The notes under the pieces: generated by a model
Told to the model about the DNA's origin: nothing
What the model saw: the letters and a program-made list of their open reading frames with translations, nothing else
Databases searched by the model: none
Assembly: GCF_029910235.1 (NCBI RefSeq)
Contig: NZ_CP112874.1
Span: 372,001 to 436,000, forward strand
Origin: Pseudanabaena galeata CCNP1313
GTDB lineage: Bacteria; Cyanobacteriota; Cyanobacteriia; Pseudanabaenales; Pseudanabaenaceae
DNA: 64,000 bases
Reading direction: 5' to 3'
Made by a program: the position numbers and the translations under genes
Shown: one piece after another, positions 16,349 through 57,570 of the stretch
How the letters are laid out: each line of letters begins with the position of its first letter
Numbering within the stretch: the stretch's first letter is position 1

Positions 16349-16459
16349 ACGTCAGTTCAACGAAAGTGAAAAATGGTAAGAATCGCTAAGCGATTCTTAC
16401 CATTTTTCACCATTTGCGTCGTGCAAAGCACGCCGCAAATGGCTATATCGAACTCACGT
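16349..16459. mobile_element. Family C miniature element, 111 bp (copy C1)
   Basis: Starts ACGTCAGTTC and ends GAACTCACGT. It contains a hairpin around AATGGTAAGAATCGC and one around CCATTTGCGTCGTGC. Its length equals that of copies at 51831 and 52386. The flanks TAATTCA and TGAATTCA resemble a target duplication with one extra base. The rest of the 384-bp intergenic space holds only another short hairpin (about 16470-16510, arms AAAGATGGAAA). Confidence 0.75.
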
Positions 16460-20434: not shown

Positions 20435-20454
20435 TCATCGTCCATAGATTCCCC

Positions 20455-20495
20455 AAAAAAGGAGAGGTTACGCTTAGCGTAACCTCTCCTTTTTT
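20455..20495 (+). terminator. Terminator of groESL
   Basis: AAAAAA, then a 13-bp stem GGAGAGGTTACGC closing on its complement, then TTTTTT. The A/T tails make it work in both directions; it sits just after the groEL stop. Confidence 0.85.
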
Positions 20496-20508
20496 GCGTT
20501 AAACTCAA

Positions 20509-21872: not shown

Positions 21873-21952
21873 TATAGCTATAGCCACCTGTATCAGGACA
21901 AATCAAAACCCAAATAGTATGAGGCGCACTGCCTCATACTATTTGGGTTTTA
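21873..21952. repeat. Family B palindromic element, right end missing
   Basis: Begins TATAGCTATAGCCACCTG, continues through AGGACAAATCAAAACCC to the central stem AAATAGTATGAGGCG-CACTG-CCTC..., then departs from the family just after GGGTTTTA. Confidence 0.7.
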
Positions 21953-21986
21953 ATGTCAGTTCGGAATAAGCTACAAAATTTTAAAA

Positions 21987-23690: not shown

Positions 23691-23811
23691 TATAGCTGCC
23701 ATCGATTTTGTTAGGACAAAAGCAAAACCAAAGAAGAGAATAGATAGCGGCGCGAAGCGCCGCTATTCTCTTCTTTGGTTTTATGTCCTCATACACTTGG
23801 CGGCAGCTATA
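23691..23811. mobile_element. Family B palindromic element (B6)
   Basis: A 121-bp nested palindrome. Outer ends TATAGCTGCCA and TGGCGGCAGCTATA, then TTAGGACA and TGTCCT, then AAAACC and GGTTTT, then a private central stem (arms AAAGAAGAGAATAGATAGCG, loop GAA). It shares its last TATA with the next element. Confidence 0.75.
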
Positions 23812-23922
23812 GCAATGTAAGTTTTGCTTAGGACATAAAACCTAAAAGATGAGGGGTGGCGCAAAGCGCCACCCCTCATCTTTTAGGTTTTGATTTTTGT
23901 CCGAGCTTCTTACGTTGCTATA
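23808..23922. mobile_element. Family B palindromic element (B7)
   Basis: Outer ends TATAGCAATGTAAG and CTTACGTTGCTATA, inner TTAGGACA and TGTCC, central stem with arms AAAAGATGAGGGGTGGCGC. It abuts B6, sharing TATA, as expected of elements inserting at TA. Confidence 0.75.
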
Positions 23923-26682: not shown

Positions 26683-26798
26683 TATAGCTATAGCCACCTG
26701 TATCAGGACAAATCAAAACCCAAATAGTGTGAGGCGGCGCGAAGCGCCGCCTCACACTATTTGGGTTTTATCTCCTAACAAGAATGGCGACAGCTATA
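26683..26798. mobile_element. Family B palindromic element (B2), 116 bp
   Basis: A complete copy: TATAGCTATAGCCACC ... GGCGACAGCTATA ends, inner TCAGGACA, AAAACCC and GGGTTTT, and a perfect central stem (arms AAATAGTGTGAGGCGGCGC, loop GAA). A near-identical copy is at 50398. Confidence 0.8.
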
Positions 26799-27482: not shown

Positions 27483-27567
27483 ACAGGAAAACATTTGAAA
27501 GCGTTGCTTTGCAATGCTTTCAAATGTTTTCCTGTGAATAGAGAGTGCGCTTCGCGCACTCTCTATT
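27483..27567. terminator. Two hairpins between convergent nitroreductase and psaK genes
   Basis: 27483-27535 has arms ACAGGAAAACATTTGAAAGC; 27537-27567 has arms AATAGAGAGTGCGC with loop TTC-like. They can serve as terminators for both convergent genes. Confidence 0.65.
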
Positions 27568-31418: not shown

Positions 31419-31534
31419 TATAGCAACGCAAGAGATAGATAGGACAAATCAAAACCAAAAAGATGAGTGGCGGCGCTTCGCGCCGCCACTCATCTTTTTG
31501 GTTTTATGTCTTAAGCAAAACTTACGTTGCTATA
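31419..31534. mobile_element. Family B palindromic element (B8), 116 bp
   Basis: Ends TATAGCAACGCAAG and CTTACGTTGCTATA, inner TAGGACA, AAAACC and GGTTTT; central stem arms CAAAAAGATGAGTGGCGGCG. It touches a family A element at 31534. Confidence 0.75.
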
Positions 31535-34227: not shown

Positions 34228-34272
34228 GAATAGATCAAAGGGCGGCGCATTGCGCCGCCCTTTGATCTATTC
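34228..34272. terminator. Perfect palindrome at the 3' end of glmS
   Basis: Arms GAATAGATCAAAGGGCGGCG around CAT. Read on the minus strand, GAA-TAG in one arm is the last codon and stop of glmS. It probably terminates glmS ahead of the amine oxidase. Confidence 0.75.
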
Positions 34273-42128: not shown

Positions 42129-42212
42129 CATAGCAACGCAAGAGATAGTTAGGACAGATCAAACCCAAAATATGAGTGGCGGCGTGAAGCGCCGCCACTC
42201 ATATTTTGGGCT
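42129..42212. repeat. Family B element fragment (B9) overlapping the cyclase stop
   Basis: CATAGCAACGCAAGAG left end, TTAGGACAGATCAAACCC, then a central stem (arms CCCAAAATATGAGTGGCGGC). The right shell is absent: it runs into coding sequence, and the TGA stop of the cyclase lies in the right arm. Confidence 0.7.
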
Positions 42213-44520
42213 CAACTGACTTGAGCCACGCCTTTAGATTAGTTGGTACTGTGGTGAAATGTACATAAATTACTTTAGTATATGGCGATCGCGGTTGGGA
42301 GATATTAGCGATCGCTAACTTATTGTCTAGCACCAGCATCTCCGATGTGACTTGTTCGGGTAGCTGATGATGAGATTGTTGATGCTTTAACACTTTGGCA
42401 TAGATTTCACCTTCAATCTCTAGCTGTTGGGTTTGGTCATAAACTTGAAGATGGAGTTTGAGATTGGTTAATACAGGAACATCCTGATCCGAGAAAATCT
42501 CCGCTCCATAGGGCGATATCTGTCGTAATTCTCCCGTAAATATCTCTGTTCCTAAGTGCTTCTCTTCTAAAAAGCGGTAGGTAATCGGAATAGGCGTAGG
42601 TAATATTTGCAACGAATCACTGAGAGAGGGAAGTTCGAGATTATAGATGCCACCAATTCCACAAATATCGTAGATTGAAATCGGATGCGATACACCTTTA
42701 GGCTCGACCTCCATAGAGCCATTGGTTTTGGCAATTTCCTGTATTTCTGCATAGGTCGTTTCCGAAATTAAGATTTGTCCTCCCACAGTATAGGATTCAA
42801 TTCTGGCGGTGAGATTGACATGATTGCCAACTACAGCATACTTAGCGCGAGATTGGGAACCGATGTTACCTGCTACGACTTCACCTGTATTGATGCCGAT
42901 TCCCATTGCGATTTCGGGCAACTGCATTTGAGTGAGTTTCTCATTTACCGATCGCATTGCTAATTGCATGGCGATCGCACTAGCCACAGCCCTTGCAGCA
43001 TCATCTTCCCGATAAATCGGCGCACCAAATAACACCAGAATTGCATCTCCAATAAACTCATCAATTGTGCCTTGATAAGTGGCGATCGCCTCGGTCATCG
43101 TTCCTAAAAACACATTGAGAATTTCCACAACCTTTTCGGGTGGCATCTTCTCAGAAATTGTGGAAAAGCCCCGTAGATCGCACATGAGGATGGTTACTTT
43201 GCGGCGATCGCCTCCTAGTTTTAGTCCTTCAGGTGTTTCTAATAAACTTTTAACCACAGCATCGGTCAAATAGCGACTAAAGTAAGTCCGAATTTGCGCC
43301 GCCGTGATGGCTAAATAGCTAGTGACAATCACACCGCCACCGAAAAAAGCGATCGCCGCAGGGACAAAGGGCAACCACCAGCCATAGGTTAGTGCGGTCA
43401 AGCAAGATGCAAATAGACTGCTTGCTAAGACTAAGATGCTCAGCGATCGCCACATAATCGCCTGAATTTTGCGCTCCTTGATATTGGTATTGCGCCATTG
43501 CCAAATCAAAGTGGAGCCAACTAGTGACCAACCAAAAATCCAGAGCCATTCCCAATGCTCTTCCCATGACTGAATTGCAACTCGTCCATCAAGGGTACTA
43601 CTGAGAATATGGCTCACAATCTGAGCATGTACTTCCACTCCCGATGTCAAAATTCTGGTACTGCCCAGTCCACCGTCAAGGGGAGTGAAGAACCAATCCC
43701 TCAAACTTACGGCAGTTACCCCAATCATCACAATGCGATCGCGCAAGAGATCGGGGGCGATTTTTCCTTCTAAAATATCCGCCATTCTTACGGTCTGAAA
43801 GCCTTGAAGTGATCGGCGGTAATTAATTATAAATTGATGTCCACCTACATCGATCCGACCGTAACCCCCATCATTATCTCGTAATGGGAATGGATTAAGC
43901 GCTTGCTCAAAGGGAACGGTTTGTTCCCCATCTAAGTAGAGTAAGGCTAGCTGCAAACCAAAACTAAGCCCTACTTTCCCATCGGGTAAAAGCAAAGATA
44001 GTATTCCTCGCCGAATCCTTCCATCCGTATCAAGGGGAAGATTGACTGCGCCAATTTGCTCGACTTGGGCAAGCGCAGGTGGCGGTTTTATATCTGAAAC
44101 TGAGAAATTTGATGCAACTAAATCAGGTGCTTTATAAGCGCCAATTAAATTGGGAGTAGTCTTAAATAGCTGTTCTAGTTGTGGATAGCCGACATCATCG
44201 GTTTTGTCACGGGCAATATCTAAGCCGATCGCACGGGGCTTTTGCTGCCTTACTTTATCTAATAATTGCGTCAATAAAGCATCACCAATTGGCCATTGGT
44301 ATTGACGGATATCGGCTTCGTCAATACCAATAATCACAATACGCTGATCCTCTGGCTCAGGCGATCGCCATCGAAAAAACTGATCGAGCATGGCTAATTC
44401 GAGTGCTTCAAGCCCCCCAATTAGCCGTAAGCCGATCACCAATAGGGAAATTGTGGGCGCAGCGATCGCAATCCCGCGCCATTTCCATAGGGAGTTTTTT
44501 ATTCGAGAGCCAATCGTCAT
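42199..44520 (-). CDS. CHASE2-domain class III nucleotide cyclase
   Basis: 773 residues. One N-terminal membrane helix, a CHASE2 extracellular sensor (about 45-315, with VIIGIDEADIRQYQWPIGD and SGVEVHAQIVSHILS), three clustered helices (about 325-400), a class III cyclase domain (metal Asp in CDLRGFS and in GDAILVLFG), and a C-terminal region with a PilZ-like stretch. The residue that selects purine, normally Lys in adenylate cyclases, is Glu488 (DEFIGD), and the second selector is Ala562 (YAVVG), so the product may not be cAMP. It is followed on transcription by nothing close; the DUF928 gene lies 87 bp upstream on the same strand. The last codons come from a family B palindrome. Confidence 0.92.
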   Translation of the reverse strand: MTIGSRIKNSLWKWRGIAIAAPTISLLVIGLRLIGGLEALELAMLDQFFRWRSPEPEDQRIVIIGIDEADIRQYQWPIGDALLTQLLDKVRQQKPRAIGLDIARDKTDDVGYPQLEQLFKTTPNLIGAYKAPDLVASNFSVSDIKPPPALAQVEQIGAVNLPLDTDGRIRRGILSLLLPDGKVGLSFGLQLALLYLDGEQTVPFEQALNPFPLRDNDGGYGRIDVGGHQFIINYRRSLQGFQTVRMADILEGKIAPDLLRDRIVMIGVTAVSLRDWFFTPLDGGLGSTRILTSGVEVHAQIVSHILSSTLDGRVAIQSWEEHWEWLWIFGWSLVGSTLIWQWRNTNIKERKIQAIMWRSLSILVLASSLFASCLTALTYGWWLPFVPAAIAFFGGGVIVTSYLAITAAQIRTYFSRYLTDAVVKSLLETPEGLKLGGDRRKVTILMCDLRGFSTISEKMPPEKVVEILNVFLGTMTEAIATYQGTIDEFIGDAILVLFGAPIYREDDAARAVASAIAMQLAMRSVNEKLTQMQLPEIAMGIGINTGEVVAGNIGSQSRAKYAVVGNHVNLTARIESYTVGGQILISETTYAEIQEIAKTNGSMEVEPKGVSHPISIYDICGIGGIYNLELPSLSDSLQILPTPIPITYRFLEEKHLGTEIFTGELRQISPYGAEIFSDQDVPVLTNLKLHLQVYDQTQQLEIEGEIYAKVLKHQQSHHQLPEQVTSEMLVLDNKLAIANISQPRSPYTKVIYVHFTTVPTNLKAWLKSVEPKI

Positions 44521-50397: not shown

Positions 50398-50513
50398 TAT
50401 AGCTATAGCCACCTGTATCAGGACAAATCAAAACCCAAATAATGTGAGGCGGCGCGAAGCGCCGCCTCACATTATTTGGGTTTTATGTCCTAACAATAAT
50501 GGCGACAGCTATA
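50398..50513. mobile_element. Family B palindromic element (B3), 116 bp
   Basis: Complete copy, almost identical to 26683-26798; in the centre the arm reads AAATAATGTGAGGCGGCGC against AAATAGTGTGAGG in B2, with the matching change in the other arm. The remaining part of the 379-bp gap has one more short inverted repeat around GTTAGAGCC (50334-50372). Confidence 0.8.
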
Positions 50514-53861: not shown

Positions 53862-53935
53862 AACCAAAAAGATGAGTGGCAGCGCTTTGCGTTGCCACTC
53901 ATCTTTTTGGTTTTATGCCTTAAGCAAAACTTATA
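53862..53935. repeat. Family B element fragment (B10)
   Basis: Central stem with arms CCAAAAAGATGAGTGGCAGC and the right shell GGTTTTATGCCTTAAGCAAAACTTA; the left shell is missing and the right end merges into the next family B copy. Confidence 0.6.
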
Positions 53936-54187
53936 ACTGTCGCCATTCTGTTAACGCCAGTTCGATATTGCCATTTGCGTCGTGCAAAGCACGACGCAAA
54001 TGGCAATATCGAACTGGCGTTAAGTTAGAAAGAGGGCTTGGAGACCAAGCCCCAATCTCAGCGTTCCACTTTTGTCGAACTGACGTTCTTGTTAGGACAT
54101 CAAACCCAAATAGTGTGAGGCGGTGCGAAGCACCGCCTCACACTATTTGGGTTTTGATTTGTACTGATACAGGTGGCTATAGCTATA
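53932..54187. mobile_element. Family B element (B4) interrupted by family C copy C4
   Basis: Left end TATAACTGTCGCCATTCT, then the family C insertion (53954-54086), then TCTTGTTAGGACATCAAACCC, the central stem (arms AAATAGTGTGAGGCGGTGC) and right end AGGTGGCTATAGCTATA. The uninterrupted order matches the reverse of 26683-26798. Confidence 0.8.
53954..54086. mobile_element. Family C element, rearranged (copy C4), 133 bp
   Basis: Starts ACGCCAGTTCGA and ends TCGAACTGACGT. Its first part is a perfect palindrome at 53951-54023 (arms start TTAACGCCAGTTCGATATTG, 34 bp); the second hairpin is degenerate (GGGCTTGGAGACCAAGCCC). Flanks TCTGTTA and TCTTGTTA are a near-exact duplication. Confidence 0.75.
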
Positions 54188-57133: not shown

Positions 57134-57570
57134 ACGAACCTCACTTTGCTCTTTGTGAATAGCTTAAATGTGCATACCTTAAGGTTTGTGCGACTTAATC
57201 AAGACTCAATTTTTTGTGGCGAAGCCACGCCACAAAAAATTGAGTCTTGATTTTACTGCGCGTCTTTAAGGAGATGCACAGTCCCAATCGTAAGTGATAA
57301 ATAGCAACCTTGTTTGATGTTATTTCTACAGATTGCGATCGCCTAGGATTTTTAGATTTATTGTTTTAAGCGCTATAGGCGATAAAAACGCCAAAATCGG
57401 TTATTAAGTCTACGTTAAGAAGTGCATCAAAGTTGGTTTGCTAACACCTGCAAAGTGTTATGGTGATCTCATAGCCAAATCAGCTATTCGGCGCAGTGGG
57501 GTAATTAAAAACAAGATTGCGCGTGTCAATTTTATTAACTGATTTGGAACTCAGAAGCGAGGTCATAGAG
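57134..57570. other. Divergent spacer pgi/lrtA with one palindrome
   Basis: Holds a perfect palindrome at 57197-57252 (arms AATCAAGACTCAATTTTTTG). The remaining 320 bp are the promoter and leader of lrtA; a long leader is known for lrtA mRNA in cyanobacteria. No gene or clear promoter box was identified. Confidence 0.5.

Follow-up and report, generated by a model that had tools for sequence, protein, structure and literature searches.

Mutations caused by template switching at quasipalindromes have been described for E. coli, yeast and phage T4 (PMC7202029). In such mutations, one arm of an imperfect inverted repeat is copied, which makes the repeat perfect, and the published signature of these switches consists of homogenised arms and inverted spacers (PMC8604942; PMC8794818). 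For yeast coding genes, Abraham and Hazkani-Covo (2021) reported both signatures, even a flip from GAA to TTC, and ten spacer inversions in coding DNA (PMC8604942). For RNA genes, Monttinen and Loytynoja (2022) proposed that template switching makes and keeps perfect stems without two-step compensation; in their account, compensation together with loop inversion is the strongest possible support and is extremely rare, and the evidence for a role in maintaining stems is circumstantial (PMC8794818, section 9). Recurrent flips of hairpin loops are also known as chloroplast small inversions (Kim and Lee 2005; Catalano 2009; both via PMC12928735). Two kinds of short bacterial repeats have to be considered as well: MITEs of the IS630/Tc1-mariner type, which are non-coding and accompanied by a TA duplication, and the REP palindromes of intergenic DNA, which PMC3733652 describes as having a GTAG or CGTC tag at one of their ends and a stem length of 6-13 bp.

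Here, we analysed a stretch of 64,000 nucleotides (the window; C1:372001-436000) from the 5.84-Mb genome of Pseudanabaena galeata CCNP1313 that contains several copies of a hairpin-bearing repeat, family B. Quasipalindrome mutation, as summarised in PMC7202029, has been studied with reporter genes and at single hotspots, whereas family B offers many natural copies, an uncorrected inverted repeat within the same units and a rate estimate of about 280-fold. Unlike the yeast cases of PMC8604942, the changes affect intergenic hairpins and a bacterial mobile element, and both loop orientations are equally frequent. Unlike the genes treated in PMC8794818, the hairpins here are not known to be RNA genes; co-change of the arms and inversion of the loop are each frequent among them, although rarely in the same hairpin pair. 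Beyond the loop flips of chloroplasts, as presented in PMC12928735, family B shows arms that change together, is a mobile family with dispersed copies and permits an estimate of the rate. Family B shares shortness, lack of coding capacity, the TA duplication and the terminal TATAGC with IS630/Tc1-mariner-type MITEs, the latter motif also ending an IS630-type element of the same genome; however, the ends of that element differ beyond TATAGC and it is a candidate mobiliser only. An assignment to the REPs was rejected because family B has a 26-bp stem and no terminal GTAG or CGTC tag, and because TATAGC stands at both ends, invariant in 40 aligned copies. Family B is a mobile-element family without a description in the literature searched; it most likely shows an already known mechanism, template switching at inverted repeats, on a scale large enough for measurement.

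Anatomy and distribution of the family-B element

Family B is a non-coding mobile element (MITE) of about 116 bp with TATAGC termini and a TA target duplication. The numerous copies are short, lack coding capacity and terminate in inverted repeats (TATAGC on either side); family B is best explained as a non-autonomous transposable element with TA as its insertion target. From the outside inwards, the unit consists of the terminal TATAGC, 16 nt whose sequence is not the same at the left and the right end and also varies with the subfamily, the AGGACA/TGTCCT shell, a short spacer of unequal length on the two sides, and a core hairpin of 26 bp with a 3-nt loop (Table 1). A previous reading of the window, made from the sequence only, had listed nine copies. 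A family-B unit or core is indeed present at eight of these positions. The ninth, 53932, was rejected: its start resembles a family-B end and its core is an unrelated palindrome. One copy, in reversed orientation at about 54072-54187, was missing from the list. The same reading had stated that both arms always match, which holds for six of the eight listed family-B cores and fails for the copies at 23691 (extra ATAG on one arm) and 53862 (a G.T pair). The region 53862-54187 is a composite of three hairpins, namely a truncated family-B core, the unrelated palindrome and the reversed copy. In the region 23691-23922, genome G005 carries another, different family-B-like copy.

Table 1 Positions of family-B copies, their parts and other hairpins in the window
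Feature	Position	Strand	Remarks
Family-B copy	21873..21975 (end approximate)	+	right end degenerate; core 21905-21951 perfect, 21 bp, 5-nt loop
Family-B MITE, subfamily 3	23691..23811	+	extra 4-nt ATAG on one arm only
Family-B MITE	23808..23922	+	first TATA common with end of 23691 copy; right shell with one base change; core 23837-23891 perfect
Family-B MITE, subfamily 1, 116 bp	26683..26798	+	intergenic, between divergent genes (patatin-like and nitroreductase-like by Pfam)
Terminal TATAGC, left, 26683 copy	26683..26688	+	alignment columns 1-6, invariant in 40 copies
Shell AGGACA, left, 26683 copy	26705..26710	+	
Core hairpin, left arm, 26 bp, 26683 copy	26715..26740	+	
Loop GAA, 26683 copy	26741..26743	.	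TTC in other copies
Core hairpin, right arm, 26 bp, 26683 copy	26744..26769	-	
Shell TGTCCT, right, 26683 copy	26771..26776	-	reads TCTCCT here, an uncompensated change
Terminal TATAGC, right, 26683 copy	26793..26798	-	
Family-B MITE, subfamily 2	31419..31534	+	core 31451-31505 perfect
Family-B copy	42129..42220 (end approximate)	+	right end lost; core 42164-42210 perfect, 21 bp, 5-nt loop
Family-B MITE, subfamily 1	50398..50513	+	one compensated double change; core and loop same at orthologous locus of G012
Core of 50398 copy	50430-50484		perfect pairing
Family-B core without left end	53862..53912	+	one G.T pair
Perfect 35-bp palindrome, unrelated to family B	53951..54023	.	at listed position 53932
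Family-B copy, reversed	54072..54187 (start approximate)	-	core 54102-54154 perfect
Non-family-B hairpin	20454..20496	.	differs from G005 by one double change and the inversion of its 1-nt loop, from G019 by three doubles and one single
Non-family-B hairpin, 14 bp	27537..27567	.	two singles relative to G012, where the loop reads GAA instead of TTC
Non-family-B hairpin, perfect 25-bp stem	57197..57252	.	imperfect in G012, flanks only 2.4% apart

The pattern TATAGCN{10,20}AGGACA yielded 301 matches in the genome, with left ends of the form TATAGCTATAGCC... entering twice, and its reversed control 11. A uniform sample of 400 kb contained 18 family-B cores, which extrapolates to about 263 (also given as 260) per genome. 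Matches were obtained in all 23 genomes of the genus that were searched, our own included, and in none of 15 genomes from other families of the class. Among 28 family-B loci of other genomes (L121-L148), 24 have a core, which is perfect in 20, and four have no detectable core. The TA duplication can be read from one clear empty site, which G005 provides at the 26683 locus (GTGCGACTATAAAATAA versus GTGCGACTA[TATAGC...GCTA]TAAAATAA); further candidate empty sites are less clear. Searches of the literature on transposable elements, MITEs and inverted repeats of Pseudanabaena, on cyanobacterial MITE hairpins and on bacterial MITEs and covariation gave no description of family B among the matches listed.

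The presence of an IS630-type element with terminal TATAGC suggests that a TA-targeting transposase is the likely mover of family B. Seven identical elements of 1022 bp with a DDE_3 protein have only TATAGC in common with family B. Two IS630-type elements were recorded, one in seven copies (L272-L278) and one in 11 (L279-L289), with the ends TATAGCGGTTTTCAAATGAGC and TATACTTTA. No transposase enclosed by paired family-B ends was found among 22 end pairs lying 500-2600 bp apart, which were inspected in part gene by gene. The sole pair with two family-like ends, L162, was discarded as an autonomous partner; it represents two separate copies that flank an ABC1-kinase gene.

Covariation of the core arms among copies

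From 85 complete elements, we dropped eight of subfamily 3, 13 that are not 116 long and five that lie more than 16 bases from the consensus. The remaining 59 copies of equal length (25 of subfamily 1 and 34 of subfamily 2) were registered on their fixed outer ends. The core is perfect in 50 of them and contains a mismatch in nine; the claim that both arms always match is therefore too strong, and the contrary outcome named with it, uncompensated mismatches in most copies, is absent. In total, the cores carry 35 compensated double changes and 11 single changes, while independent arms predict 0.36 doubles. The 35 doubles comprise 18 distinct ones, shared changes being inherited. The five diverged copies among those left out have 26 doubles and 14 singles, of which the two copies from the uniform sample contribute seven and ten, respectively. 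Since many copies were recruited via their similarity to copies of the window, the sampling was checked for bias: eight copies found through their ends alone have six doubles and two singles, and three copies from the uniform sample have three doubles and no singles.

The covariation proposed earlier is confirmed and strong. For an alignment, 40 copies (39 distinct) were chosen from the 85 elements, 24 of subfamily-1 type and 16 of subfamily-2 type; two of the 40 (L109 and L056) are absent from the 59 as too diverged. In this alignment, 16 of the 26 core pairs carry changes in both partners and no pair varies in a single partner. The observed covariation score was not reached by any of 500 shuffles. 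The exchange of G/A in one arm with C/T in the other between the 26683 and 50398 copies, which had served as the example, is real, and the 50398 form also occurs at the orthologous locus in G012. By contrast, none of the 12 shell and terminal pairs changed on both sides, and the AGGACA/TGTCCT shell of the 59 copies shows 20 singles and no double. The shell is thus an internal control, showing that correction is limited to the continuous palindrome. Of the sites outside the core, only 2.7% are changed in the same copies.

When all units are oriented by their outer ends, 24 of the 59 copies have a GAA loop, 26 TTC, five AAA and four TTT, and mixed forms do not occur. The resulting ratio of 29:30 between GAA/AAA and TTC/TTT does not stand for 29 independent flips. 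A change from GAA to TTC requires either one inversion or three simultaneous changes. Moreover, four of the five arm haplotypes that are present in more than one copy were found with both loop orientations, which means that several flips occurred.

The changes are unevenly distributed along the stem. Unique changes amount to one double and seven singles in the nine pairs next to the loop and to 17 doubles and four singles farther out (Fisher p 0.0014), with the L017 and 54102 copies as exceptions and with a base composition that varies along the stem. This contrast fits a foldback in which the stretch near the loop primes and only the outer part is copied. Changes in the nine pairs also fall short of expectation, so that some constraint may act on them.

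Changes at orthologous loci

For 109 family-B cores with flanks from our genome, a spanning match was present in 12 cases in the 959 kb of G012 that were compared, and seven of these are gapless in the core. The seven loci differ by five doubles and no single, which shows, for a small sample, that the arms of family B change together in place. Four of these doubles lie in L052:495, where 41 of 592 flanking positions differ (6.9%). The loop is the same at five loci, changed from TTT to TTC at one and inverted at one. The latter locus, L024, has one double and flanks that differ at 35 of 143 positions, and the pair may be non-orthologous. A secure flip in place was thus not found among the seven gapless loci, so that flips of family B are either slower than arm correction or predate insertion. 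The 5:0 count does not include five family-B loci whose cores align with gaps; they contain seven doubles and nine singles, all singles but one belonging to L159:12671. The core of the 42129 copy differs from its G012 counterpart by two doubles. In the intergenic region of the 31419 copy, G012 has a copy that is displaced by about 25 bp, with a truncated left end and an equally perfect core that differs by three doubles; it is perhaps a separate insertion.

A first comparison between our genome and G012 covered 52 hairpins, of which 30 align without gaps and have flanks that are 5.0% apart. These 30 hairpins differ by 14 doubles (0.8 expected), 39 singles and four other double mismatches, and their loops are the same, inverted and otherwise different in ten cases each. 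Core and loop are unchanged in the three family-B members of this set. Every change therefore sits in the other 27 hairpins, whose loops are the same in seven, exactly inverted in ten and otherwise different in ten cases. Five of the 14 doubles belong to a single hairpin, L214:12384. As singles outnumber doubles at these loci, correction is weaker or incomplete there. A looser, loop-registered comparison of 43 hairpins (nine of the 52 being lost or unaligned) gave 50 doubles, 80 singles and eight others; it includes non-homologous stems, and the gapless set was used instead. At orthologs with short loops, singles are rarest in pairs 6-11 and commoner near the loop and beyond, in a count from which reciprocal comparisons were only partly removed. 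Indels mirrored in both arms were observed at three distinct loci (L213:3498; L176:11856 with L179; L175:13028 with L185). Other flagged cases can also be read as substitutions, and the hairpin L214:17712 has a one-sided indel. At the hairpin 34228-34272, the inner stem matches the corresponding place of G012 and the outer stem is another, nearly fully paired sequence; with flanks 11% apart, homology is uncertain.

Hairpins are abundant in this genome far beyond family B. The window contains 37 hairpins with a score of at least 14, compared with none in one order-2 Markov shuffle. In 464 kb, 209 hairpins reach a score of at least 16, of which 174 are perfect, and family B accounts for 25 of the 282 with a score of at least 12. 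Perfect hairpins (145 of 175 in the uniform 400 kb) extrapolate to about 2,100 per genome. Per 100 kb, 12.5-54.6 hairpins reach a score of 16 in seven genomes of the genus, compared with 0-5 in seven from other families. The value for G012 is high because its stretches had been selected for the vicinity of family-B matches, and the other families were sampled with 20-40 kb each, mostly of higher G+C content.

Template switching as the probable cause and alternative explanations

The co-change of the arms in family B is very probably explained by template switching during replication (quasipalindrome correction), that is, by a known mechanism acting at an unusual scale. After insertion of the element, replication would occasionally switch template within the near-perfect palindrome and rewrite an arm with its partner as the template. 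Mutations of a single arm would then be either erased or passed to the other arm, giving rise to compensated doubles and mirrored indels. The loop would mostly be kept if the new strand folds back onto itself, and arm correction with a kept loop is what section 9 of PMC8794818 expects from such a foldback. A switch to the opposite strand that runs through the centre would leave a reverse-complement loop. The shell and the outer ends lie outside the continuous palindrome and would thus escape correction and retain single changes. Arms made identical by copying are visible as doubles among copies, as doubles at orthologous loci and as mirrored indels. Reverse-complement loops occur in place at other hairpins, and in family B among copies only, not securely in place. 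Other hairpin-copying reactions could leave the same trace; we infer that template switching during replication, by foldback and opposite-strand routes, is the source and that selection on structure is not needed. The sequence-only reading had left open whether the structure is selected or the arms are copied onto each other. Arm copying is favoured by the excess of doubles over singles in spite of the few changed sites outside the core, the undiminished change of the core, the 15 transversions among the 35 doubles, the co-change of family-B arms at fixed loci, the unmixed loops, the loop flips in place at other hairpins, the mirrored indels and the uncorrected shell.

Selection of the hairpin as an RNA, for instance as a two-way transcription terminator or an mRNA stabiliser, would turn the doubles into ordinary compensatory evolution, which we regard as unlikely. 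It would agree with the location of the hairpins: according to a simple home-made gene call, none of the 209 with a score of at least 16 and only two of 257 non-family-B hairpins at score 12 lie within predicted genes. The density of other hairpins peaks between convergent genes (5.45 per kb; tandem 3.10, divergent 2.12), as does that of the 25 family-B copies (0.50, 0.25 and 0.23, respectively). Moreover, the base of the stem is A-rich on the left and T-rich on the right. Because of the high density between convergent genes, some selection is possible in addition, and some copies may possibly also serve as terminators. However, selection for structure normally lowers the total amount of change, and the core has changed as much as the rest of the element, with 0.0264 events per site compared with 0.0267 outside. 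The ratio is 0.99 (bootstrap 0.71-1.38, from resampled copies with shared ancestry remaining in it) if doubles and half of the singles are counted per pair, on the assumption that erasure and transfer of an arm mutation are equally likely. When distinct changes are counted once, the values are 0.45 per core pair and 0.51 per outside site. There is thus no sign of constraint on the core taken as a whole, as expected for copying of arm onto arm in the absence of selection. Under an assumed steady state, the standing mismatches imply that correction per hairpin exceeds mutation per site about 279-fold (161-614).

The kinds of change also argue against selection of an RNA. While 20 of the 35 doubles are transitions, 15 are transversions, for which there is no route through G.U. 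Core mismatches in family-B orientation are four G.U and five A.C; in the transcribed orientation of tandem contexts, the corresponding numbers of 22 and 14 (p 0.24) are not decisive. Furthermore, unmixed loops are found in both orientations, copies between divergent genes, such as that at 26683, are equally perfect, and a search with 4227 Rfam families at the gathering score gave no match in the window. A functional RNA structure is commonly held to be best supported by compensatory changes, and here such changes arise at a seemingly neutral rate. This is a warning that covariation alone is insufficient for naming structured RNAs in hairpin-rich genomes.

Gene conversion between elements could swap complete cores, so that both arms change together. 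Some doubles do recur with the same loop, for instance that of columns 41/79, which is present in six subfamily-1 copies that all have TTC. However, 12 private doubles are without a donor among the 59 copies, which are a subset of the genome's copies, and shuffling whole right arms among copies 2000 times gave a mean of 4.9 and a maximum of 11 doubles. Doubles and loop inversion at orthologous hairpins outside family B also speak against such swapping, which is improbable as a source of the pattern.

It is still less probable that only copies with perfect hairpins transpose and that perfection reflects selection on the mobile element instead of repair in place. The hairpin belongs to the element as a regular component, and the stable loop orientation at the few fixed family-B loci would allow flips to belong to the mobile phase. 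Against this stand the doubles without singles at fixed orthologous family-B loci (L052:495; a small sample), the doubles in the copy at 42129, which has lost an end, and at hairpins outside the family, and the changes of equal age outside the core, which stay single. Assembly graphs with a short k can be confused by perfect inverted repeats, and arms of 14-19 bp fall below the usual assembly k; an assembly artefact as the source of loop orientation and arm identity is hardly credible, because loop flips were seen with arms of 14, 15, 17 and 19 bp and because errors of this kind should produce neither doubles in the arms nor mirrored indels.

If template switching is the cause, family B represents a large natural set of palindromes with an uncorrected control inside the same units. 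The role of template switches in perfecting stems, which is circumstantial for RNA genes according to section 9 of PMC8794818, would become measurable in terms of rate, tract length and loop flips. A wider proposal, which we put forward only tentatively, is that replication of short inverted repeats is unusually prone to switching in this genus. Quasi-palindromes would then drift to perfection, the perfect hairpins of the genome would reflect mutation bias and not selection, and compensated changes would be neutral. Simple loss of ExoVII or SbcD was rejected as a cause; the large subunit of ExoVII and SbcD are present in all 23 searched genomes of the genus. Two SbcD-type matches above the threshold were obtained in 22 of these 23 genomes, and none of 15 others has two; the second SbcD-like nuclease may be linked to living with the hairpin load. 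In our genome, the SbcD-like loci are L294:3751-4917 (G000:C1:3827751) and G000:C1:3356765, the shorter of which follows an RNase HII gene. Loss of RNase H2 has been linked to quasipalindrome mutations in yeast (PMC3820800), a parallel that is only suggestive for the RNase HII/SbcD-like locus. The intergenic DNA is also full of perfect short-loop hairpins of many other families, such as the family with a 1-nt loop, GCGAAAAATGGTAAGAATCGCT, at 16366, 51880 and 52436.
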